Source: Burkholderiaceae bacterium (GTDB lineage: Bacteria > Pseudomonadota > Gammaproteobacteria > Burkholderiales > Burkholderiaceae_C). Taken from it: a stretch of DNA of 64,000 bases. Made by a program: the position numbers and the translations under genes. The stretch spans positions 46,857 to 110,856 of the forward strand of contig JAGOPK010000012.1 in assembly GCA_017992055.1 (NCBI GenBank), read 5' to 3'. This document shows positions 45,702 to 57,460 of the stretch, one piece after another. Each line of letters opens with the position of its first letter. Positions within the stretch are counted from its first letter, which is position 1. A model generated the notes under the pieces. It ran no database searches and had not been told where the DNA came from. It saw nothing but the letters and a program-made list of their open reading frames with translations.

Positions 45702-46862
45702 TCACTTGGCAGCGACTGTCTGGCTTTCAGGCAATGGCGCCACCGCCTGCAGGGCCCGGGCCAGCGCCGCCACGGCGCGCTCGGGCGCATGCAGCTTGTC
45801 CAGGCCGAACAGACCCAGGCGGAAGGTCTTGAAGTCCGGGCCTTCGTCGCATTGCAGCGGCACGCCGGCAGCCGTCTGCAGGCCCTGGGCGGCAAAGGCC
45901 GCGCCGCTGTGCACCGCGGCATCGGCGGTGTGGCTGACGACCACGCCGGGCGCCTCGAAGCCCGGCGCGGCCACGCTGGCAAAGCCGTGCTGGCGCAGCA
46001 GGGCGCGCACGCGCCGGCCGAGCTCCCATTGCTCGTCGCGCAGGCGCTCGAAGCCATAGGCCGCGCTCTCGGCCATCACGTCGCGGTTGCGCGCCAGCGT
46101 ATCGGTGGGCAGGGTGGCGTGGTAGGCATGGCCGCCCTTCTCGTAGGTCTCCATGATCTGCAGCCACTTCTTCAGGTCGCAGGCGAAGCTGGTGCTGGTG
46201 GTGGCGTCGATGGCCGCGCGGGCGCGCTCGGACAGCATCACGAAGGCGCAGCCGGGCGAGCCGCTCCAGCCCTTTTGCGGCGCGCTGACCAGCACGTCGA
46301 TGCCCAGCGCCACCATGTCCACCCACAGGCAGCCCGAGGCGATGCAGTCCAGCACGAACAGGCCGCCGGCCGCATGGGTGGCGGCGGCCACGCGCTGCAG
46401 GTAGTCGTCGGGCAGCAGCATGCCGCTGGCGGTTTCCACATGCGGGGCGCAGACCACGGCCGGCTTCAGCCGCGCAATCGCCGCCTCGACCTCGGCAATC
46501 GGCGCCGGCGTCCAGGCCGCCTGAGCACCGGGCGCCAGCGGCCGCGCCTTCAGCACCTCGTGCTGCGACGGGATCGCGCCCATGTCGAAGATCTGGCTCC
46601 AGCGGTAGCTGAACCAGCCGTTGCGGATCACCAGGGCCGGCCGGCCGGTGGCGAACTGGCGCGCCACCGCCTCCATGCCGAAGCTGCCACTGCCGGGCAC
46701 GACCACTGCCGAGGCCGCGTGATAAACCTGTTTCAGCGTGGCCGAGATGTCGCGCATCACGCCCTGGAAGCGCTTGGACATGTGGTTCAGCGCCCGGTCG
46801 GTGTAGACCACCGAGTACTCGAGCAGGCCATCGGGATCGACGTCGGGATGCAGGCCGGGCAT
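45702..46862 (-). CDS. Class V aminotransferase (serine-pyruvate / alanine-glyoxylate type)
   Basis: This PLP enzyme of 386 aa has the Lys Schiff-base segment SAPQKGW (K197) and the PLP-phosphate region PGSGSFGMEAVARQ. FVLDCIASG before K197 carries the pyridine-contacting Asp. These fit serine-pyruvate or alanine-glyoxylate aminotransferases; 2-aminoethylphosphonate-type members are also possible. A GAGGAGA site precedes the ATG. It is divergent from an AraC-type membrane regulator by 53 bases and ends in its own terminator, so it is probably a separate unit from liv. Confidence 0.82.
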   Translation of the reverse strand: MPGLHPDVDPDGLLEYSVVYTDRALNHMSKRFQGVMRDISATLKQVYHAASAVVVPGSGSFGMEAVARQFATGRPALVIRNGWFSYRWSQIFDMGAIPSQHEVLKARPLAPGAQAAWTPAPIAEVEAAIARLKPAVVCAPHVETASGMLLPDDYLQRVAAATHAAGGLFVLDCIASGCLWVDMVALGIDVLVSAPQKGWSGSPGCAFVMLSERARAAIDATTSTSFACDLKKWLQIMETYEKGGHAYHATLPTDTLARNRDVMAESAAYGFERLRDEQWELGRRVRALLRQHGFASVAAPGFEAPGVVVSHTADAAVHSGAAFAAQGLQTAAGVPLQCDEGPDFKTFRLGLFGLDKLHAPERAVAALARALQAVAPLPESQTVAAK

Positions 46863-46903
46863 GGGGGGTCTCCTCTGGTGCTCTGGGTCGGGGCGGGCCA
46901 GCT

Positions 46904-46909
46904 TAGCAT
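46904..46909 (+). promoter_or_regulatory. -10-like hexamer next to a start codon (leaderless candidate)
   Basis: TAGCAT, six bases (CGCGCC), then the ATG of the AraC-type gene. No ribosome site is possible in this spacing. Confidence 0.5.
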
Positions 46910-46915
46910 CGCGCC

Positions 46916-48124
46916 ATGACCCCGCACGAGCCGCTGGACATCGCCGACGCCCTGCTGCGCGGCATGCTGCTGGCCTTGCTGGGCCTGCTGGCCTGGCAGC
47001 TGGGCCGGGCCGGCGCACGCCGGGTCAACCCGGCCAACCGGGCCAAGCAGTCCGTCGGCCGCTGCGGCGCCGCCCTGTGCCTGGGCCTGATGCTGCAGGT
47101 GCTGTCGGACATGCCCCTGCTCAACGCCCGCCTGCCGCGCACGGCGCTGGCGCCGCTGGTGGCGGTGGCGGTGGGCAATGCCGTGCTGTTCTGGCTGTTC
47201 GTGCGCGCGGTGTTCGACGACGGCTTCCGCCTGCGGCCGCGCCATGGCCTGCTGTGGGCCGCGGCGGCGGCGCTGGGTGGGCTGAACTGCGGCTTCGTGG
47301 CCGGCAGCCAGACCGTGCTGGCGCCGCTGGCCCTGGGCCTGCAGCGCGCCGTGCCGCTGGCTGCGGCCGTGGCCAGCACCGCGGTGATGGCCCTGCACTG
47401 GCAGGCCGATCTGGTGGAGCCGCGACGCCGCCTGCGCGCCTGGCTGGTGCTGGGCGGCATCGCCTATGCGCTGCTGATGCTGCTGGTGCGCATGCAGGGT
47501 GGCGGCGGCCAGCTGCCGCCGCTGGCCGCGCTGGGCGACGGCCTGGCCCTGCTGGCGCTGACCGGCCTGGCCGCCAGCCAGCTGCTGCGCCTGGAGCCGG
47601 GGGCGCTGGGCGCCGACCCGCCATTGCAGACGGCGCTGCCGGGGCCAGCGCTGCCGCGGCCGACGCCCGACATCGCACCCCCGGTGCTCGACGCCGCGGC
47701 CGACGCTGAACCCGCCACCGATCCCGACGATCCTGCCGACCTGGCCCTGGCCACGGCGCTGCAGCAGGCCATGGCCGATGGCCAGGTCTACCGCCGCGAG
47801 GACCTCAGCGTGGCCACGCTGGCCGCCCACCTGGGCGTGCCGGCCTACCGGCTGCGCCGGGTGATCCACCAGCGCCTGGGCCATCGCAACTTCAATGCCT
47901 TCGTCAACGCCTGGCGGCTGGACCAGGCCCGGGCCGCGCTGGCCGATCCGCAGCGCCGCGACGAAGCGGTGCTGAGCATTGCGCTGGACGCCGGCTTCCA
48001 GTCCATCGGCCCGTTCAACCGCGCCTTCAAGGCCGCGACCGGGCTGACGCCCAGCGAGTTCCGCCGCCGCGCCGATTTCCACAATCGGCCAGCCGAAATC
48101 ATTGCGCCGATTCGCGCGCGATAG
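46916..48124 (+). CDS. Membrane-anchored AraC-family regulator
   Basis: The 402-aa protein has about seven hydrophobic spans in residues 12-225 and a C-terminal AraC DNA-binding domain (about 300-390) with two helix-turn-helix units. The segments LAAHLGVPAYRLRRVIHQ and IALDAGFQSIGPFNRAFK are typical of the family. Such membrane-anchored AraC proteins sense something in or across the membrane. It is divergent from the aminotransferase gene, a likely target. Confidence 0.85.
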   Translation: MTPHEPLDIADALLRGMLLALLGLLAWQLGRAGARRVNPANRAKQSVGRCGAALCLGLMLQVLSDMPLLNARLPRTALAPLVAVAVGNAVLFWLFVRAVFDDGFRLRPRHGLLWAAAAALGGLNCGFVAGSQTVLAPLALGLQRAVPLAAAVASTAVMALHWQADLVEPRRRLRAWLVLGGIAYALLMLLVRMQGGGGQLPPLAALGDGLALLALTGLAASQLLRLEPGALGADPPLQTALPGPALPRPTPDIAPPVLDAAADAEPATDPDDPADLALATALQQAMADGQVYRREDLSVATLAAHLGVPAYRLRRVIHQRLGHRNFNAFVNAWRLDQARAALADPQRRDEAVLSIALDAGFQSIGPFNRAFKAATGLTPSEFRRRADFHNRPAEIIAPIRAR

Positions 48125-49286: not shown

Positions 49287-50471
49287 TCAGACCCGCCAGT
49301 ACCAGCCGCGCCGGTCCAGCCAGGCCGCCAGGGCCCAGTACAGCGCCAGCAGGGCCAGCGCCTGCAGCAGCGAGCCCAGGCGGGCGTCGGCGGCCAGCGG
49401 CTCGAAGACCTCGCGCCAGGCCCAGGCCCAGGGGCTGATCCAGCGCGGCGCGCCGGCCGCATCCAGGCCGTCGGGCCAGCGCAGCAGGCCCTGCAGCCGC
49501 GGCAGCAGGCCGCTGAGCACGAAGATGCCCAGCGCATTGCGGCCAAACGGCAGCAGCAGGGCCCGCAGCGCGCGGCCGGCGGGCCCGGGCACAGCACTGC
49601 GCAGATCGCTGACCCAGGCCAGGCAGGCCCAGCCGGCGATGGCCAGGGCCGTGCTCAGCAGCACATAGGACGGCGTCCACAGCTTCTTGTTGATCGGCAG
49701 CACCAGCTGCCACAGCCAGGCCAGGGCGCCCAGCGCGCAGGCGGCGATCAACAGCCGGGCCAGCATGCGCTCGCGCGGCGCCGGCGCGGCCCGCCACTGC
49801 GTGCCCACCCACCAGCCCAGCAGCACCTGGGCCACGGCCGGCACGGTGCTGGCCAGGCCCTCGGGATCGAAGGCCACGCCCTCGCCCTGGTACAGATGGC
49901 CGGCGCCGAGCAGGGCGCGGTCCAGCCGGGTGCCGAAGAAGCCTTCCAGGCTGTACGGCTCGGCGCTGTCGCCCAGCGCCAGGCACAGGCCCCAGTAGCC
50001 CAGCAGCAGCGCCGCGGTGGCCGCCAGCGCCACACGGGCCCGGCCGCGGCAGGCCATCAGCAGCAGGGCGGCACCGGCCCAGGCCAGCGCAATGCGCTGC
50101 AGCACGCCCAGCCAGCGCAGCGTGTCCCAGTCGCGCAGCACCAGCTGGCCCGCGGCGTCCCAGCGCACAAAGGGCGCGGCATTCAGCGCCAGGCCGAGGG
50201 CAAAGATCAGCGTGGTGCGCGCGAGCCACTTGCGCCAGAAGCGCGACGCTGGCGCGGCCAGCCAGCCCGGCAAGGCCAGCGCCAGGGCCTGGCCCACGGC
50301 GAACAGGAAGAACGGGAACACCAGGTCGGTGGGCGTCAGCCCATGCCAGGCGGCATGGGCCAGCGGTGGGTACAGATGGCCCCAGCTGCCGGGGTTGTTG
50401 ACCACCACCATCAGCGCCACCGCGGCGCCGCGGAACAGGTCCAGCGACTCGATGCGGGCCGGCCGATTCAA
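49287..50471 (-). CDS. nagX: NagX-like membrane acyltransferase (heparan-glucosaminide N-acetyltransferase family)
   Basis: The 394-aa protein has about ten spans and begins with IESLDLFRGAAVALMVVVNN, the mark of the DUF5009/NagX group related to human HGSNAT. The GLTPTDLVFPFFLF segment also fits. Human HGSNAT carries acetyl across a membrane onto glucosamine; bacterial NagX proteins sit in GlcNAc/chitin-use regulons without a defined reaction. The start is TTG, overlapping the murQ stop (TTGA). As the last gene of a MurNAc operon it may take part in amino-sugar handling at the membrane; that is inference. Confidence 0.83.
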   Translation of the reverse strand: MNRPARIESLDLFRGAAVALMVVVNNPGSWGHLYPPLAHAAWHGLTPTDLVFPFFLFAVGQALALALPGWLAAPASRFWRKWLARTTLIFALGLALNAAPFVRWDAAGQLVLRDWDTLRWLGVLQRIALAWAGAALLLMACRGRARVALAATAALLLGYWGLCLALGDSAEPYSLEGFFGTRLDRALLGAGHLYQGEGVAFDPEGLASTVPAVAQVLLGWWVGTQWRAAPAPRERMLARLLIAACALGALAWLWQLVLPINKKLWTPSYVLLSTALAIAGWACLAWVSDLRSAVPGPAGRALRALLLPFGRNALGIFVLSGLLPRLQGLLRWPDGLDAAGAPRWISPWAWAWREVFEPLAADARLGSLLQALALLALYWALAAWLDRRGWYWRV

Positions 50472-51361
50472 GGCGCCTCGCCCAGCGCCGCCCGCACATC
50501 GCCGCCCACCGCCTCCAGCGCGGCGCGGGCGGCGTTGGCGTCCAGGCCGCGGCGCACCATCACGATGGCCAGCTTGACACGCCAGCCGCCGTCGCGCAGC
50601 GCGGCCTCGGCCTGGGCCTGGCCGCAGCCGGTGGCCAGCATGGTCAGGCGCACGGCGCGGCGCACCAGCTTCACATTGGTGGCGCGCATGTCCACCATCA
50701 GGTTGCCGTAGACCTTGTGCAGCCGCACCATCACCGCGCTGGAAAAGCTGTTCAGCGCGATCTTCTGCGCCGTGCCGGCCTTCAGCCGCGTGCTGCCGGA
50801 GATGACCTCGGGCCCGGTGTCGAGCACGATGCCGATCTCGGCCTCGGTGACCAGCGGCGTGCCGGGGTTGTTGGCCATGCCGATGGTCAGCGCGCCGGCC
50901 GCGCGCGCCGCCGACAGCACGCCCAGCGCAAACGGCGTGGTGCCGCTGGCGGCGATGGCGAACACCACGTCATCGGCACCGGGGCCCAGGCGGTGCAGGT
51001 CCTCGGCGCCCTGGGCGCCATCGTCCTCGGCGCCCTCGACGGCCAGGAACATCGCGCCCGGCCCACCGGCCAGCAGGGCCGGGGCCTGGTCGGCCGACCA
51101 GCTGAAGGTGGGGTTCAGTTCCACCGCATCCAGCACGCCCAGGCGGCCGCTGGTGCCGGCGCCGGCATAGATCAGCCGGCCGCCACGCGCCAGGCGCAGC
51201 GCCGCGGCGTCCACGGCCCGCGCCAGCGCCGGCCCGGCGGCCTGCACCGCGGTGACCGCGCCCAGCTGGTCGTCGACCAGGGCCGCCACCAGCTGCGGCG
51301 TGGCATAGCGGTCCAGCCCGGCATGGGCCGGGTGCGGGGTTTCGGTGTGGGAGGTCTTCAT
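50468..51361 (-). CDS. murQ: N-acetylmuramic acid 6-phosphate etherase MurQ
   Basis: MurQ cleaves the lactyl ether of MurNAc-6P to yield GlcNAc-6P and D-lactate. The 297-aa product (E. coli 298) has the SIS sugar-phosphate fold with IYAGAGTSGRLGVLDAVE, NPTFSW, the phosphate-binding AIAASGTTPFALG and the KAGTAQKIALN segment. All family landmarks are present. It follows the GHL10-like gene by 22 bases and overlaps nagX by 4. No PTS transporter MurP is next to it; the kinase upstream is the likely source of MurNAc-6P. Confidence 0.95.
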   Translation of the reverse strand: MKTSHTETPHPAHAGLDRYATPQLVAALVDDQLGAVTAVQAAGPALARAVDAAALRLARGGRLIYAGAGTSGRLGVLDAVELNPTFSWSADQAPALLAGGPGAMFLAVEGAEDDGAQGAEDLHRLGPGADDVVFAIAASGTTPFALGVLSAARAAGALTIGMANNPGTPLVTEAEIGIVLDTGPEVISGSTRLKAGTAQKIALNSFSSAVMVRLHKVYGNLMVDMRATNVKLVRRAVRLTMLATGCGQAQAEAALRDGGWRVKLAIVMVRRGLDANAARAALEAVGGDVRAALGEAP

Positions 51362-51383
51362 CGTCGGTGGGACTGTGGCCGCT

Positions 51384-52949
51384 TCAGCCCTGGCGCAGCC
51401 AGGCGCGGCGCGGGCCTTCCTGGCCCAGGCGGTTGATGGCCGAGAGCACCAGCAGCCCGGCATCGGCGGCGGCGTCGGGCAACTGCGGCTCGGTGCCGGG
51501 CAGCACGGCAAACTGCCAGTCGCTGCCGCGGCGCTGCCACAGCGCCCATTGCCACGCCGGCGACGCAGCGACCTGCAGCCGCAGCCGGCCATCGGCCTGG
51601 CGCTGCAACTGCACGGCGCCGGGCAGCGGCACGCCGCCGCGCCAGGGCATGGCCGGCACCAGGGCCGGCGTGGCATAGGCCTCGCGCTGCAGCCGCGTGG
51701 CGATGCCGTCGCGGTCCTGCATCAGCGCCACCATGCTGAAGTGGAGGTGGCCGCCGGCCGCCTGGTGCTGGGCATGGCGCTGGCGCTGCAGCGCGACCTG
51801 GGCCAGCACCTCGTCGGCCGGCCAGGGCGGCTTGGCGCCACCGATGGAGCTGGTGAACAGCCCCGGCCAGACATGACGGCCCGCATGCACGCTGGTCGCG
51901 ACATTGCGGCCCAGCCAGTAGTCCAGCAGCACCTCGAAGGCCTGGGCGCGGCGCTCGCGCGGCCAGTACAGCTGCGGCGCCAGGTAGTCGAACCAGCCCT
52001 GCTCGCACCAGCGCTCGACGTCGGCATACAGCTTGTCGTACTGGCTGAAGCCGGCGATGCCCGGCGGCCGCAGATCGGGCCGCGGCAGGCCGAAGGGGCT
52101 GATGCCAAAGCGCACCCAGGGCTTGACCGCGCCGATCTCGTGCCACAGCTCGGCCACCAGGCCATCGACCTGGGCGCGGCGCCAGTCGGCGCGCGAGGCC
52201 AGGCCGCCGCCGTCGCGGTAGCGCTGCCAGGGCGCGTCGTCCGGAAACGGCTGCTCCACGCCGCCTTCGCTGACCGGATAGGGATAGAAGTAGTCGTCGA
52301 TGTGCACCGCATCGATGTCGTAGCGGCGCACCACGTCCAGCAGCACCTGGCGCGTCAGCGCCGCGGCCTCGGGCTCGGCCGGGTCCAGCCACAGCTGGTC
52401 GCCATAACGCCGCACCAGATCGGGCCGGCGCCGCGCCACATGGCGGGCATCGAGCTCGCTGCGCGCCGACGGGTGGCGCGCGCGATAGGGGTTGAACCAG
52501 GCATGCAGCTCCAGGCCGCGGCGGTGCGCCTCGTCGACCCAGAAGGCCAATGGGTCGGCCTGCCCGGCACCATCCGGCGCCTGGCCCGAGGCGCCGCCGA
52601 GGTACTCACTCCAGGGCTCCAGCGGCGAGGCATACAGCGCATCGGCCATGGGCCGGACCTGCAGCACCAGCGCATTCAGGCCGATGGCGGCGGCGCGGTC
52701 CAGCATCGCCAGCGCCTCGGCCCGCCACTGCGCGGCCGGCAGGCCGGGACGGCTGGGCCAGTCGATGTTGGCGACGCTGGCGATCCAGGCGGCACGCAGC
52801 TCGCGCGGCGCCGGCGGCGGCTGCTCGTCGTCGGGCAGGGCCACCTCGCGCCAGCCGCGGGCCGGCCCGTCTCCGGCCGGCGTGGTGCAGCCGGCCAGCA
52901 GCCCGGCCAGCAGGCCCAGGTGCTGGCGCCGGCCAGGGTCGGCGCTCAT
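51384..52949 (-). CDS. DigH-like family 10 glycosyl hydrolase lipoprotein (GHL10)
   Basis: The 521-aa protein has a lipoprotein signal (LLAGC, C21) and a TIM-barrel GHL10/DUF187 domain (about 50-400). Typical segments are RAAWIASVANIDWPS, NALVLQVRPMADALY, WFNPYRARH, DAVHIDDYFYPYP and WFDYLAPQLYW, with conserved Asp and Glu/Asn acids. About 100 more residues at the C-terminus form an extra domain. In E. coli the relative DigH (YddW) is an outer-membrane lipoprotein that cuts peptide-free murein glycan. That role fits this operon. The ATG overlaps the amidase stop (ATGA). Confidence 0.88.
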   Translation of the reverse strand: MSADPGRRQHLGLLAGLLAGCTTPAGDGPARGWREVALPDDEQPPPAPRELRAAWIASVANIDWPSRPGLPAAQWRAEALAMLDRAAAIGLNALVLQVRPMADALYASPLEPWSEYLGGASGQAPDGAGQADPLAFWVDEAHRRGLELHAWFNPYRARHPSARSELDARHVARRRPDLVRRYGDQLWLDPAEPEAAALTRQVLLDVVRRYDIDAVHIDDYFYPYPVSEGGVEQPFPDDAPWQRYRDGGGLASRADWRRAQVDGLVAELWHEIGAVKPWVRFGISPFGLPRPDLRPPGIAGFSQYDKLYADVERWCEQGWFDYLAPQLYWPRERRAQAFEVLLDYWLGRNVATSVHAGRHVWPGLFTSSIGGAKPPWPADEVLAQVALQRQRHAQHQAAGGHLHFSMVALMQDRDGIATRLQREAYATPALVPAMPWRGGVPLPGAVQLQRQADGRLRLQVAASPAWQWALWQRRGSDWQFAVLPGTEPQLPDAAADAGLLVLSAINRLGQEGPRRAWLRQG

Positions 52950-53764
52950 GGCGGCTCCAGCCCGGTCAGCACCTGCAGCAGGGCCGCGGTCTCGGCATCG
53001 GGCTGGCCGTCGTGGCGCGCCGGGCGGTACTTCAGCTGGAAGGCGGCGATGACGCGGCGGGTGGCCTCCCGTGCGGCTTCATCGGCCTGGCCGGACTCGG
53101 GCAGCTTGTAGCCGTGCCTGGCCAGTGCCCGCTGGAACCAGGCCAGGTCCGGCAGCCGCGCCTCGAAGCCGGGGCGGGCCGCGGCCACGCGCGCCGCATC
53201 GGGCCAGGGGATCAGGCCGGCCTCGGCCAGGCGCTGCCAGGGGAACAGCGCGCCGGGATCGATCTTGCGCTGCGGTGCGATGTCGCTGTGGCCGAGGATG
53301 CGATCGGGCCGGATCTGGTGGCGCGCGACGATGTCTTTCACCAGGGCCAGCAGCGCATCGATCTGCTCGGGCGGATACGGCGCAAAGCGGTGCTGGCCGT
53401 CGGCCAGGCGCTCGATGGCACCGGGGTTGACGATCTCGATGCCGATGGAGCTGCTGTTGAGGTTGGCATGGCCGGCCCAGTAGCTCTCGCCGGCATGCCA
53501 GGCGCGGCGGTCCTCGTCGACCAGGCGGTAGATGCGCGGCGGTTTTTCGTCGCTGAGCAGGTAGTGCGCCGACACCTGCTGGCGCGTCAGGATGCGCAGC
53601 GAGTCTTCCAGGTTCTCGTCGGTGTAGTGCAGGATCAGGAACAGCACCCGGCTGTCCTGGCCCTGGGCGCGATGGCTGGAATCGATGGTCGGGCCGCTGG
53701 CGCAGCCGGCCAGGCCCAGCAGCATCGGCAGCGCCAGCAGCAGCAGGTGGTGCAGGGATCTCAT
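52946..53764 (-). CDS. AmiD-like N-acetylmuramoyl-L-alanine amidase lipoprotein
   Basis: The 272-aa protein has a lipoprotein signal (LAGC, C21), an Amidase_2 domain (about 40-190) and a C-terminal peptidoglycan-binding helical domain. Zinc ligands are likely H46 in LHYTDEN, the His in GHSDIAP and the Asp in KIDPG. E. coli AmiD, an outer-membrane lipoprotein, removes peptides from murein and from anhydro-muropeptides. The ATG overlaps the kinase stop (ATGA). Working just before DigH-like glycosidase in gene order suggests stripping and then cutting of glycan. Confidence 0.92.
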   Translation of the reverse strand: MRSLHHLLLLALPMLLGLAGCASGPTIDSSHRAQGQDSRVLFLILHYTDENLEDSLRILTRQQVSAHYLLSDEKPPRIYRLVDEDRRAWHAGESYWAGHANLNSSSIGIEIVNPGAIERLADGQHRFAPYPPEQIDALLALVKDIVARHQIRPDRILGHSDIAPQRKIDPGALFPWQRLAEAGLIPWPDAARVAAARPGFEARLPDLAWFQRALARHGYKLPESGQADEAAREATRRVIAAFQLKYRPARHDGQPDAETAALLQVLTGLEPP

Positions 53765-54693
53765 GCCTTCAGCATAGCCGCGGCGCGCTGCGCGGCCGCC
53801 TGCTCGGCGCTCTGCCCGGGCCGGACCAGGTCGATGCCGGACGGCAGGGCCGCCCGCAGCGCCGCGGCGATGCGCGGGCTCAGGCCGAAGGCACGCCCGG
53901 CCAGCGCCACCGGCCGTGGGCCGAAGCGCTGGATCAGCGCCAGCGCCAGCCGCGCCAGCTCGGTGCCGGCGGCGTCCATCAGCGGCGCCACCTCGGCATC
54001 GTCGTGCGCGGTGTCGGCCACGGCCCGCGCCAGCAGGCCGATGTCGCCGCGGCTGGCCGAGGCCAGCCAGGCGCGGTTGCGCGGCCAGTCGTCGCCGCCG
54101 ATCAGCGGCAGCACGCGCCGCGCCAGCGCCGAGCGTTGCCAGGCGCCGGGCTCGGCATCCTCGGCGCGCCAAAGGCCCCGCAGCGCCTGCACCGCGATCC
54201 AGTGCGCGCTGCCGGCGTCGTCGATCAGCACGCCGCGGCCGCCGGCGCGGTGCAGTTGTCCCTGGGCATCGAGAAAGCCGGCGATGGAGCCGGTGCCGGC
54301 ATAGACCAGATAGCCGCCACCGGGGGCGAACGCGGTGCGGCTGGCCATCTCGATGTCGCTGCCGAGCTCCACCCGCGCCGCGTCCAGGCCCAGGCGCTGG
54401 GCCAGGCCCTGCTGCAGGCGCTGGCCCGATGTGCGGTCGGTGCCGGTGACGCCGGCGCACAGCGCGGCCAGCCGGCCACCGGCCGGGCCCAGGGCCGCCA
54501 GCAGCTCGTCCAGCGCCGCCGCGGCCACGCCGGCCTGGTCCGACAGCAGACGGGCGCCGCTGAGGCCCGGGCACTCGCCCTGGGCCAGCGGCCGGCCATC
54601 GCCGCCGGCCAGGGCCCAGCGGGTGGCGGTGCCGCCCACGTCCAGGCCCAGGGCCAGCGGCAGCGTTGCTGCAGACTGCGACGGAAGATTCAC
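53761..54693 (-). CDS. BadF/BadG-type N-acetylhexosamine kinase (GlcNAc or MurNAc kinase)
   Basis: The 310-aa cytoplasmic protein belongs to the BadF/BadG/BcrA/BcrD ATPase family (acetate-kinase/actin fold). It has GLDVGGTATRW, CAGVTGTD, a VYAGTGSIAGF phosphate loop and GRGVLIDDAGS. Members include mammalian NagK and clostridial MurK, which phosphorylates both MurNAc and GlcNAc at C6. Because MurQ is in the same operon, MurNAc kinase activity is the best guess. The start is GTG at 54693 with a strong GAGAGGTGG site; it heads the operon. Confidence 0.85.
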   Translation of the reverse strand: MNLPSQSAATLPLALGLDVGGTATRWALAGGDGRPLAQGECPGLSGARLLSDQAGVAAAALDELLAALGPAGGRLAALCAGVTGTDRTSGQRLQQGLAQRLGLDAARVELGSDIEMASRTAFAPGGGYLVYAGTGSIAGFLDAQGQLHRAGGRGVLIDDAGSAHWIAVQALRGLWRAEDAEPGAWQRSALARRVLPLIGGDDWPRNRAWLASASRGDIGLLARAVADTAHDDAEVAPLMDAAGTELARLALALIQRFGPRPVALAGRAFGLSPRIAAALRAALPSGIDLVRPGQSAEQAAAQRAAAMLKA

Positions 54694-54822: not shown

Positions 54823-55881
54823 ATGGACACCCCGCCCACCCCACGTCCGACCCTGGCCCTGGACGGCGTGGACGCCGTGGTCGCCGAGCCGCTGCGCTTC
54901 AAGGCCCGGCTGGCCATCGGCGAGAACGCCTATGCCTCGCTGCGCGTGGTCAACCGCATGCGCGAGCTGTGGGACGTGCTGGGCGCGGCCGGCGCCGGCG
55001 CGGCGCTGGCCAAGTCGGGCCTGCTGGCCGGCGGTGCCGCCACGCCCATCGGCTGGGTGGCGCTGGCGGCGCTGGCCTCGGGCGGCGCCTGTTATGGCCT
55101 GTACCGCCTGCTCGGGCACACCAAGGGCGAGCGGGTGATCGAGATCCCCAAGTACCTGAACACGCCGCTGGACACGCTGGGCCTGGCCCTGTTCGACCTG
55201 CTGGCGCCGCTGGCGCTGCGCCTGGCCGCGGTGGACGGCCAGGTGCCGGCCGCCGCTCGCCAGCGCCTGCAGGCCCATCTGGTCGACGACTGGGGGCTGT
55301 CGGCCGGCTTTGTCGAGCAGGCCGTGGCCCTGGTCGAGGCCGACGCGCTGCGCGGCTCGCCCGAGGACATGGCGCTGGAGCTGTCGCAGTTCCTGCATGC
55401 CAGCCCGGACTGCAACCATGCGGCCATCGCCGCCGACACCACCGCCTTTCTGCGCCAGCTGCTGGAAAGCGACGGCGCGCTGGATGACGGCCAGGCGGCG
55501 GCCCTGGCCCGCGTCAGCGAGCTGCTGAGCCTGCCGCCCGGCAGCGAGTGGACGCAGCGCTGGCAGCTGGTGCGCGAGCAGGCCCGGGACCTGGGAAGCC
55601 AGGCCTGGCAAGGTGCGGCGGTGGCCGCCGACCGGGCGCAGCAGGCCTGGGCCCAGGCCCAGGCCCGGCTGCCCGACAAGGCCGTGGTCGAGGCCAGTGT
55701 GGGCCAGGGCGTGGCCCAGGCCGGCCGGCTGCTCAAGCAGGGTGCGGGCCTGGCCGCCGAGGCGGCCGATGCGGCCGGCGAGCTGGCCCAGGGCCTGGCC
55801 CATGAACTGTCGGACAAGGCCGGCCAGGCCAGCCAATGGCTGCGGCAGCAGGCCGCCAGGCGCCGCCGCACGCCGCGCTGA
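54823..55881 (+). CDS. TerB-like membrane-associated protein of unknown function
   Basis: The 352-aa protein has a glycine-rich hydrophobic hairpin (about 65-100, GAAGAGAALA to CYGLYRLL). A helical region follows (about 125-235) that resembles TerB/DjlA-type tellurite-resistance domains (LAAVDGQVPAAARQRL, VDDWGLSAGFVEQAV). The C-terminal 110 residues are long Ala/Gln-rich helices with regular spacing, ending in Arg-rich RRRRTPR. It is divergent from the salvage operon, with a gap of 129 bases. I cannot assign a function. Confidence 0.55.
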   Translation: MDTPPTPRPTLALDGVDAVVAEPLRFKARLAIGENAYASLRVVNRMRELWDVLGAAGAGAALAKSGLLAGGAATPIGWVALAALASGGACYGLYRLLGHTKGERVIEIPKYLNTPLDTLGLALFDLLAPLALRLAAVDGQVPAAARQRLQAHLVDDWGLSAGFVEQAVALVEADALRGSPEDMALELSQFLHASPDCNHAAIAADTTAFLRQLLESDGALDDGQAAALARVSELLSLPPGSEWTQRWQLVREQARDLGSQAWQGAAVAADRAQQAWAQAQARLPDKAVVEASVGQGVAQAGRLLKQGAGLAAEAADAAGELAQGLAHELSDKAGQASQWLRQQAARRRRTPR

Positions 55882-55903
55882 GCCCCGCCGCCAGGCCATC
55901 GCC

Positions 55904-55909
55904 CAGAAT
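55904..55909 (+). promoter_or_regulatory. -10-like hexamer next to the dacB start (leaderless candidate)
   Basis: CAGAAT, six bases (CGCGCC), then the ATG at 55916; same pattern as at 54811. Confidence 0.45.
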
Positions 55910-55915
55910 CGCGCC

Positions 55916-57460
55916 ATGCCCTGCCGTGACCCTGCCCGCCGCCTCCTGACCCGTCCCGCCCTCCCCGCCCTGTTCAGCGCGCTGGCCCTGCTCGCCGGCT
56001 GTGCCAGCGCGCCGTCGCTGCAATCGCCCGACGAGGCCCTGCCCGCGCCGGTGCGCGCGGCGCTGCAGCAGGCCGGCCTGCCGGCCAGCTCGCTGGCCGT
56101 GCTGGTGCTGCCGGCCGATGGGCCCGGCCAGTCGCCGCGCCTGGCCCTGCAGCCCGACCGCGCCATGCAGCCCGGCTCGGCCATGAAGCTGGTCACCAGC
56201 GTGGTGGCGCTGGACCATCCGGGCGTCGGCCCCACGGCGCGTGGCTTCACCCAGCTGCGCAGCCGCGCCGCCCAGGTGGGCGAGGTGCTGCAGGGCGATC
56301 TGCTGATCGAGGGCGGTGCCGATGCCGAGCTGGGCCTGCCCCAGCTGTGGGCCCTGCTGCTGGAGCTGCGCCACCAGGGCCTGCGCGAGATCAACGGCGA
56401 CATCGTGCTCGACCGCAGCCTGTTCACGCCGGCGCGGCCCGAGCTGGGCGTGCCGCCTTTCGACAGCTCGCCCGAGTTCCCCTACAACGTCATCCCCGAT
56501 GCGCTGAACCTGGGCCTGTCGCTGCACAGCCTGCAGCTCAGCGCCGACGGCCACCAGGTGCAGGCGCGGCCGCTGCCGCCGCTGCCCGGCGTGCTGATCG
56601 ACAACCGGCTCAGCCTCAACGACGCGCCCTGCCGCGAATGGGACGGGCACGGCTGGCAGCCGCCGCGCACCGAGCCCGGGCCTGGGCCCGATGGGCAGCC
56701 GCGGCTGGTGTTGCAGGGCGGCTTTCCGCGCGGCTGCACGGTGCGGCCGCAGCTGCAGCTGCTGGAGCGCAATCTGCAGGCCCAGGCCCAGCTGCGCTGG
56801 CTGTGGCAGGGCCTGGGCGGGCAATGGAGCGGCCGCGTGCGCGATGCCCAGCCCGGCGAGGCCCAGGCCGGCGACAGCCGCGTGCTGGCGCGCCGCGATG
56901 CCCGGCCCTGGGGCGAGCTGCTGCGGCCGCTGAACAAGCAGAGCGACAACGCCATGACCCGCCTGCTCTACCTGCAGCTGGGCGTGGCCGAGGCCCAACG
57001 CACATCTGCAGCGTCCGGCGACGCCGCGCCGCGCGAGCGCCGCACCGCCGACTGGGCCGATGCCGCGGTGCGCCGCTGGTTTGCCGCGCACGGCATCGCC
57101 AGCGACGGCCTGGTGCTGGACAACGGCTCGGGCCTGAGCCGCAGCGAGCGCATCACGCCGCGGCAGATGGCGGCGATGCTGCGCGTGGCCGTCAACGGCC
57201 GGCGCGCACCCGACCTGCTGATGAGCCTGCCGGTGGTCGGCGAGGACGGCACCATGCGCCGGCGCCTGACCAGCGGCCCGGCCAGCGGCCTGGCGCGGCT
57301 GAAGACCGGCACGCTGCGCAATGTGGTGGCCCTGGCCGGCCTGGTGCCCGACCGCCAGGGCCGGCGCTGGGTGTTCGTGGCCATCATCAACGACGAGGCC
57401 GCCCACCGCGGCCGGCCGGTGCTGGATGCGCTGGTGGACTGGGTGGCCGCTCAGGACTGA
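55916..57460 (+). CDS. dacB: D-alanyl-D-alanine carboxypeptidase/endopeptidase, PBP4 type, lipoprotein
   Basis: This PBP4-family enzyme trims or opens murein peptide crosslinks. The 514-aa product has a lipoprotein signal (LLAGC, C29) where E. coli DacB is simply periplasmic. The three active-site motifs are SAMK (S88, K91), SDN (S343-N345) and KTG (K463-G465), with the family's large insert between the first two. It is next to the murein salvage operon and the TerB-like gene. Its last 10 bases overlap the convergent next gene. Confidence 0.93.
   Translation: MPCRDPARRLLTRPALPALFSALALLAGCASAPSLQSPDEALPAPVRAALQQAGLPASSLAVLVLPADGPGQSPRLALQPDRAMQPGSAMKLVTSVVALDHPGVGPTARGFTQLRSRAAQVGEVLQGDLLIEGGADAELGLPQLWALLLELRHQGLREINGDIVLDRSLFTPARPELGVPPFDSSPEFPYNVIPDALNLGLSLHSLQLSADGHQVQARPLPPLPGVLIDNRLSLNDAPCREWDGHGWQPPRTEPGPGPDGQPRLVLQGGFPRGCTVRPQLQLLERNLQAQAQLRWLWQGLGGQWSGRVRDAQPGEAQAGDSRVLARRDARPWGELLRPLNKQSDNAMTRLLYLQLGVAEAQRTSAASGDAAPRERRTADWADAAVRRWFAAHGIASDGLVLDNGSGLSRSERITPRQMAAMLRVAVNGRRAPDLLMSLPVVGEDGTMRRRLTSGPASGLARLKTGTLRNVVALAGLVPDRQGRRWVFVAIINDEAAHRGRPVLDALVDWVAAQD

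Follow-up and report, generated by a model that had tools for sequence, protein, structure and literature searches.

The bacterial cell wall is an abundant food, and to our knowledge few Gram-negative pathways for its consumption have been described. The question raised here is what a compact run of five genes, encoding a sugar kinase, an amidase, a glycosidase, the etherase MurQ and a NagX-type membrane protein, contributes to a Burkholderiaceae bacterium (GenBank assembly GCA_017992055.1, 5.9 Mb). The genes lie in a 64,000-nucleotide stretch of contig JAGOPK010000012.1, hereafter the window (G000:C3:46857-110856; G, C and L numbers denote our genomes, contigs and loci). We consider it probable that they belong to a locus for the use of peptidoglycan, of which they form the half that processes the sugars; the locus would run murein sugars to N-acetylglucosamine 6-phosphate (GlcNAc-6P) and D-lactate, and would be split in this strain.

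The Five-Gene Operon

An earlier note on this DNA had described five genes on one strand, joined by three ATGA or TTGA overlaps and one 22-base gap. Both coordinates and junctions are confirmed (Table 1), the latter being, in operon order, ATGA, ATGA, the gap (51362-51383) and TTGA. The Pfam and NCBIfam results also agree with the family names given there for all five genes, and the idea of a murein-sugar catabolic module with an amidase, a glycosidase of the denuded-glycan type, a sugar kinase and an etherase is supported.

Table 1. Coordinates of the operon genes, in operon order, and of an adjoining gene (window positions).
Feature	Position	Strand	Remarks
BadF-family (PF01869) sugar kinase, predicted N-acetylmuramic acid (MurNAc)/GlcNAc 6-kinase	53761..54693	-	GTG start
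AmiD/AmpDh2-type N-acetylmuramoyl-L-alanine amidase, predicted outer-membrane lipoprotein	52946..53764	-	Amidase_2 + PG_binding_1
DigH-like GHL10 glycosidase, predicted lipoprotein	51384..52949	-	PF02638
MurQ, MurNAc-6-phosphate etherase	50468..51361	-	NCBIfam models + solved MurQ
NagX/HGSNAT-type transmembrane protein, predicted amino-sugar acetyltransferase	49287..50471	-	TTG start; HGSNAT_cat/DUF5009
PBP4-type D-Ala-D-Ala carboxypeptidase (Peptidase_S13), outside operon	55916..57460	+	start picked by eye; scanned as open reading frame 55613-57460

MurQ exceeds the cut-offs of NF003915 (360 bits against 168) and NF009222 (310 against 255), falls just below that of TIGR00274 (301.3 against 302), and aligns to the solved MurQ 4s12 (E 2e-70), the alignment taking in both EGAEDD and DA.E..PTF. 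The amidase is closest to the solved AmpDh2 of Pseudomonas (E 3.1e-89) and then to E. coli AmiD (E 2.4e-58), in near full-length alignments. For the glycosidase, the GHL10 catalytic domain scored 209.8 bits and a single solved sequence was matched, Cwp19 (E 1.3e-70), presumably a lytic transglycosylase. The lipoprotein predictions for both rest on a lipobox-like LAGC seen by eye near each N-terminus. The kinase has the PF01869 fold and the catalytic Asp; it is predicted to be a MurNAc/GlcNAc 6-kinase.

Conservation of the Locus

In a sample of 150 genomes of the family, 29 gave a kinase match at E <= 1e-5. The operon-type kinase was found in the window's genome and 12 others (42-52% identity), all other matches reaching at most 38%. 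MurQ is present in 26 of the 150 genomes, namely in 13 of 13 with the operon-type kinase as against 13 of 137 without it (Fisher p = 5.7e-12, the genomes being related and so not independent); given these proportions, the pairing of kinase and MurQ is not due to chance. Three of the places with weaker kinase matches, when extended (L044-L046), proved to belong to nag loci whose kinase is NagK-like, and MurQ, AmiD or DigH was nearby in none of them. The usual neighbourhood of the kinase in the family comprises MurQ, an AmpG-family carrier, NagX, DigH, the kinase and AmiD, and TonB receptors, Opp-type peptide ATP-binding cassette (ABC) transporters or LysR genes occur near many of these loci. 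By our own reading, of the 12 other genomes with the operon-type kinase, 11 have a cassette-type AmpG at most about 11 kb from a kinase; the exception, G094, has its MurQ on another contig. In G021, one TGA falls within the MurQ match and the AmpG match is in two pieces.

A search of named genomes with a profile of 14 kinases yielded at least 348 relatives. The loci of the 80 best were fetched, mainly from Massilia, Duganella, Undibacterium, Rugamonas, Roseateles and Rubrivivax, with three metagenome-assembled genomes (MAGs) of Holophagae (Acidobacteriota). Presence was scored by tblastn (E <= 1e-10), and starts are approximate, coming from a simple purpose-built gene caller; several loci are truncated by the end of their contig, and the two samples overlap, at least L105, L119 and L126 corresponding to G036, G111 and G062. 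MurQ lies within 10 kb of the kinase in 71 of the 80 loci, and in 62 of the 63 with long flanks. Matches to the amidase (74 loci), AmpG (70) and DigH (67) are similarly frequent, followed by PBP4-like (42), LysR (37), NagX (33), DadA-like (27) and TonB receptor (21) matches. The order MURQ-AMPG-NAGX-DIGH-KIN-AMI (KIN, kinase; AMI, amidase) occurs in 27 loci and its NagX-less version in 25; AmpG and DigH are 60-294 bases apart, without NagX between them, in 27. The Massilia soli locus (L095) reads GntR-MurQ-AmpG-NagX-DigH-kinase-AmiD-LysR-D-Ala-D-Ala dipeptidase. It also has a divergent DadA and a PF00144 beta-lactamase-family protein, and combines genes for the sugar part of murein with genes for its peptide part.

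Within the genus, the operon-type kinase was found in 5 of 21 genomes, with 53-63% identity in the four besides the window's own, and three more genomes gave weak kinase matches only. The earlier note had proposed a search for the gene order across Burkholderiales. The core set does recur, as KIN-AMI-DIGH-MURQ in G159 and G165 of the same genus and in L148 and L150 among the named relatives, whereas the five-gene order with NagX directly after MurQ, and last, was seen in the window only, among the loci compared. A core order unique to the strain is ruled out by these relatives. In L153 the order is KIN-DIGH-MURQ, with no amidase match between. In G152 and G153 the contig breaks off within the kinase-amidase pair or shortly after it, leaving the order unreadable, and a NagX match was found in none of the four same-genus loci (G159, G165, G152 and G153), two of which are cut in this way.

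Some further observations concern individual loci. The Holophagae loci (L123, L151, L161) have the genes in the same order, MurQ-AmpG-(NagX)-DigH-kinase-AmiD; NagB stands ahead of them, in L151 and L161 together with NagA, and L151 gave no NagX match. This occurrence in another phylum suggests either transfer between phyla or misbinning of the MAGs. In Paucibacter sp. KBW04 (L152), the kinase, a GntR gene and an AmpG-family gene are flanked by two MurQ matches on opposite strands. A same-genus locus (L063, G143) has MurQ with no kinase, amidase or DigH match across the 15.5 kb fetched. Just past the window's operon lies an aminotransferase-like protein (45702-47018, named by eye), with a look-alike at the equivalent place in G159 (L177:4575-5735); the intervening genes are not the same, and those of G159 include one for a 3-keto-disaccharide hydrolase family protein.

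A Probable Importer and a Proposed Split of the Locus

The earlier note saw no obvious importer unless NagX or an unlinked carrier took that part. Here the unlinked carrier gained ground, since an AmpG-family gene lies on the same contig, while NagX looks more like an acetyltransferase. The genome has four AmpG-family genes: one on C7, above the curated AmpG cut-off, one within the nag locus on C18, a distant copy on C17, and one on C3 at about 133.0-134.4 kb, some 31 kb past the kinase and adjoining a TonB receptor. A tree of 44 rows has an unsure root, the C7 copy being a very long branch; the C3 copy falls within its cassette group (support 88-89), together with the same-genus L178 and L180 (Shimodaira-Hasegawa-like approximate likelihood-ratio test, SH-aLRT, 100) and away from the nag copy. 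An AmpG-family carrier also adjoins MurQ in relatives. Judged by sequence, the C3 gene is likely the ortholog of the cassette AmpG and hence the importer thought to be missing; that an importer is absent altogether was rejected in view of the AmpG-family genes of this genome and its relatives.

In the same-genus genome G165 (L178), AmpG and a TonB receptor adjoin a D-Ala-D-Ala dipeptidase, an LD-carboxypeptidase, one open reading frame without a family name, and then KIN-AMI-DIGH-MURQ. The surroundings of the C3 carrier (L059, about 127.9-137.6 kb of the contig) contain an M15_3 peptidase, LysR, a 958-aa TonB receptor, the carrier, DadA and AstE-like genes, and are likely the second half of the murein locus. 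Because the AmpG/TonB pair adjoins the operon core in G165 but lies apart here, the simplest reading is a peptidoglycan locus split in two in the window's strain. A DUF3034 protein stands just beside the L059 gene group.

Other Recycling Genes in the Genome

Elsewhere in the genome, AnmK scored above its cut-off (440.8 bits), and a MurU-like gene (249.7 bits against 250) and an AmgK-like gene (L186; 320.3 against 550) scored below theirs. On these matches the genome appears to hold both routes, the catabolic one through MurQ and the AmgK-MurU one. The nag locus (L044, G000:C18:241000-258000) encodes GntR, a NagK-like kinase, NagA, a NagB-II-like protein, a NagZ-like beta-N-acetylhexosaminidase and the AmpG-family carrier mentioned above. 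NagA (236.8 bits against 225.65) and the hexosaminidase (242.1 against 207) exceed their cut-offs, NagK (158 against 370) and NagB-II (271.1 against 430) do not, and the locus would supply the steps after MurQ.

Across the family sample, a MurU-like gene (E <= 1e-40) is present in 126 of 150 genomes, 39 of them above the curated cut-off. By hand tally, 18 of the 26 MurQ-bearing genomes have one, 10 of these above the cut-off; the other eight are G030, G034, G036, G061, G083, G084, G094 and G116, the last counted so for its absence among the matches listed. A 2017 paper states that Beta- and Gammaproteobacteria carry either MurQ or AmgK-MurU (PMC5371407). The co-occurrence runs counter to this either/or statement, which does not hold here at the gene level, for MurU across the sample, AmgK having been checked in the window's genome alone.

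Proposed Pathway

What the sequences show is the gene families, how they are conserved and linked, and that the partner genes are present. Every enzymatic step of the following pathway we infer, and with it where the proteins act, which substrates they take, which way the carrier works and whether foreign murein supports growth. Outside the cytoplasm, the amidase lipoprotein would remove the stem peptides, after which the DigH-like lipoprotein would cleave the bare glycan. The C3 AmpG-family carrier would bring in GlcNAc-MurNAc-type fragments and the NagZ-like enzyme would split them; the operon kinase would then phosphorylate MurNAc, and perhaps GlcNAc, at O6, and MurQ would yield GlcNAc-6P and D-lactate. 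NagA and the NagB-II-like enzyme of the nag locus could lead on to fructose-6P, and NagX may acetylate free amino groups of periplasmic amino sugars.

A broader proposal, to which we give slightly less than an even chance, is that Burkholderiales carry a dedicated locus for feeding on the murein of other cells, over a separate AmgK-MurU self-recycling, with both routes side by side for different purposes. Its components, in varying combinations, would be a TonB receptor, an AmpG-type disaccharide carrier, AmiD and DigH lipoproteins, a MurNAc kinase, MurQ, D-Ala-D-Ala dipeptidase, LD-carboxypeptidase, D-amino-acid dehydrogenase and a peptide ABC transporter. What looked like an isolated operon would then belong to a murein-feeding pathway that recurs among Burkholderiales, for example in Massilia, Duganella, Undibacterium and Roseateles, and that can be put to the test.

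Alternative Explanations

Three other explanations were considered. The operon might serve housekeeping turnover, the amidase and DigH acting on the cell's own septal murein at division and the kinase and MurQ recovering the sugar: in E. coli, DigH breaks down denuded glycans and gathers at midcell (PMC12288456), and the PBP4-type gene adjoins the operon. We regard this as improbable, given the patchy occurrence of the kinase group (13/150 family and 5/21 same-genus genomes), the AnmK, AmgK-like and MurU-like genes kept for self-recycling, and the TonB receptors, peptide ABC transporters, D-Ala-D-Ala dipeptidase and DadA near the locus in some relatives, which point to feeding. Alternatively, the kinase could act on GlcNAc only, with MurNAc-6P reaching MurQ from AnmK working on anhydroMurNAc made by lytic transglycosylases. 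AnmK is indeed present, the sole solved relative matched by the DigH-like protein is Cwp19, assumed above to be such a transglycosylase, and the only curated NCBIfam match of the kinase is NagK_SO3507, far under its cut-off (40.3 against 370 bits), which the NagK-like kinase of the nag locus does not reach either. Moreover, the residue preceding the catalytic Asp, Ser in the window's kinase, is Asn in 56% of the 80 relatives, and because this holds for more than half of the group, a MurNAc kinase becomes less sure and a GlcNAc kinase likelier. Room for the lactyl ether was judged by the lack of Glu or His at the S133-P134-L135 site of Tannerella forsythia MurK (TfMurK) and of Asn at T94; the patch in the window's kinase is G151-G152-R153 (counted manually through human NAGK G145), but human NAGK and S. 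tokodaii hexokinase also have no Glu or His there, so that the patch does not discriminate. On balance a GlcNAc-only kinase is unlikely, though not far-fetched: a separate NagK-like kinase exists in the nag locus, the operon kinase tracks MurQ, and its group has a motif of its own, RAGGRG..(D/G)D, as against (S/G)GWG..GDEGSG in 12 NagK-type sequences.

It is very doubtful that NagX is a MurNAc importer like TfMurT, which would make the operon self-sufficient for uptake. Uptake of MurNAc has been assigned to TfMurT (PMC5790795, PMC10465942), of which NagX is described as a distant relative (PMC9007349); this relation is taken from the papers only, and the assignment of TfMurT to the sodium symporter superfamily (PMC5790795) fits poorly with it. 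By our count along the alignment, H39 of NagX corresponds to HGSNAT H297, the acetyl-carrying residue (PMC9007349), and this catalytic His is kept in 46 of 46 rows. The same paper proposes that NagX acetylates periplasmic glucosamine and favours acetyl transfer, and the 27 loci with closely spaced AmpG and DigH have no NagX between them. The window's protein is a family relative of the named equivalog NagX_SO_3504 and not the equivalog itself (121.3 bits against 480). Its identity, over long matches, is 34-40% to NagX proteins of the cassettes; it is 41-44% to the nag-locus copy L046, with which it pairs outside the cassette group in a tree (support 96, both long branches). Because of the retained His, this placement and the acetyl transfer proposed in PMC9007349, NagX looks like an accessory recruited in this strain and optional to the locus, resembling an acetyltransferase more than an importer.

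Comparison with Known Systems

Parts of the proposed murein-feeding kit are known from other bacteria, among them a Caulobacter TonB receptor for GlcNAc (PMC13046382), whereas the combined AmiD-DigH-kinase-MurQ-AmpG locus with a TonB receptor in Burkholderiales was not found described among the titles listed in our searches of the open-access literature, nor was a paper there joining MurQ with Burkholderiales or Massilia. Like the window, the T. forsythia murTKQ and ampG cluster (Tanf_08345-08385) pairs a PF01869 kinase with MurQ; it also has MurT, said to be related to NagX, and an adjoining AmpG that imports GlcNAc-MurNAc (PMC5790795, PMC10465942, PMC7670621, PMC5388701). This precedent, with MurK of C. 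acetobutylicum as another MurNAc/GlcNAc kinase (PMC5790795), rules out that the pairing of a BadF kinase with MurQ is in itself new. In the available excerpts on the T. forsythia cluster, however, a LytB amidase enhancer and YbbC are named and AmiD and DigH are not; that cluster serves a MurNAc auxotroph, whereas the window's operon has AmiD/DigH-type lipoproteins built in and its AmpG unlinked.

C. acetobutylicum MurK is the highest VIA-align match of the kinase model, but with 18% identity over the aligned part. The E. coli MurP/MurQ route shares the MurQ etherase; unlike it, the window's operon has no phosphotransferase-system MurP (for the operon only, no genome search for MurP having been made) and has an ATP kinase and an AmpG-family carrier. 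The anabolic AnmK-MupP-AmgK-MurU route of Pseudomonas, finally, has its counterparts in the AnmK, AmgK-like and MurU-like genes elsewhere in the genome, while the window's operon itself is catabolic.
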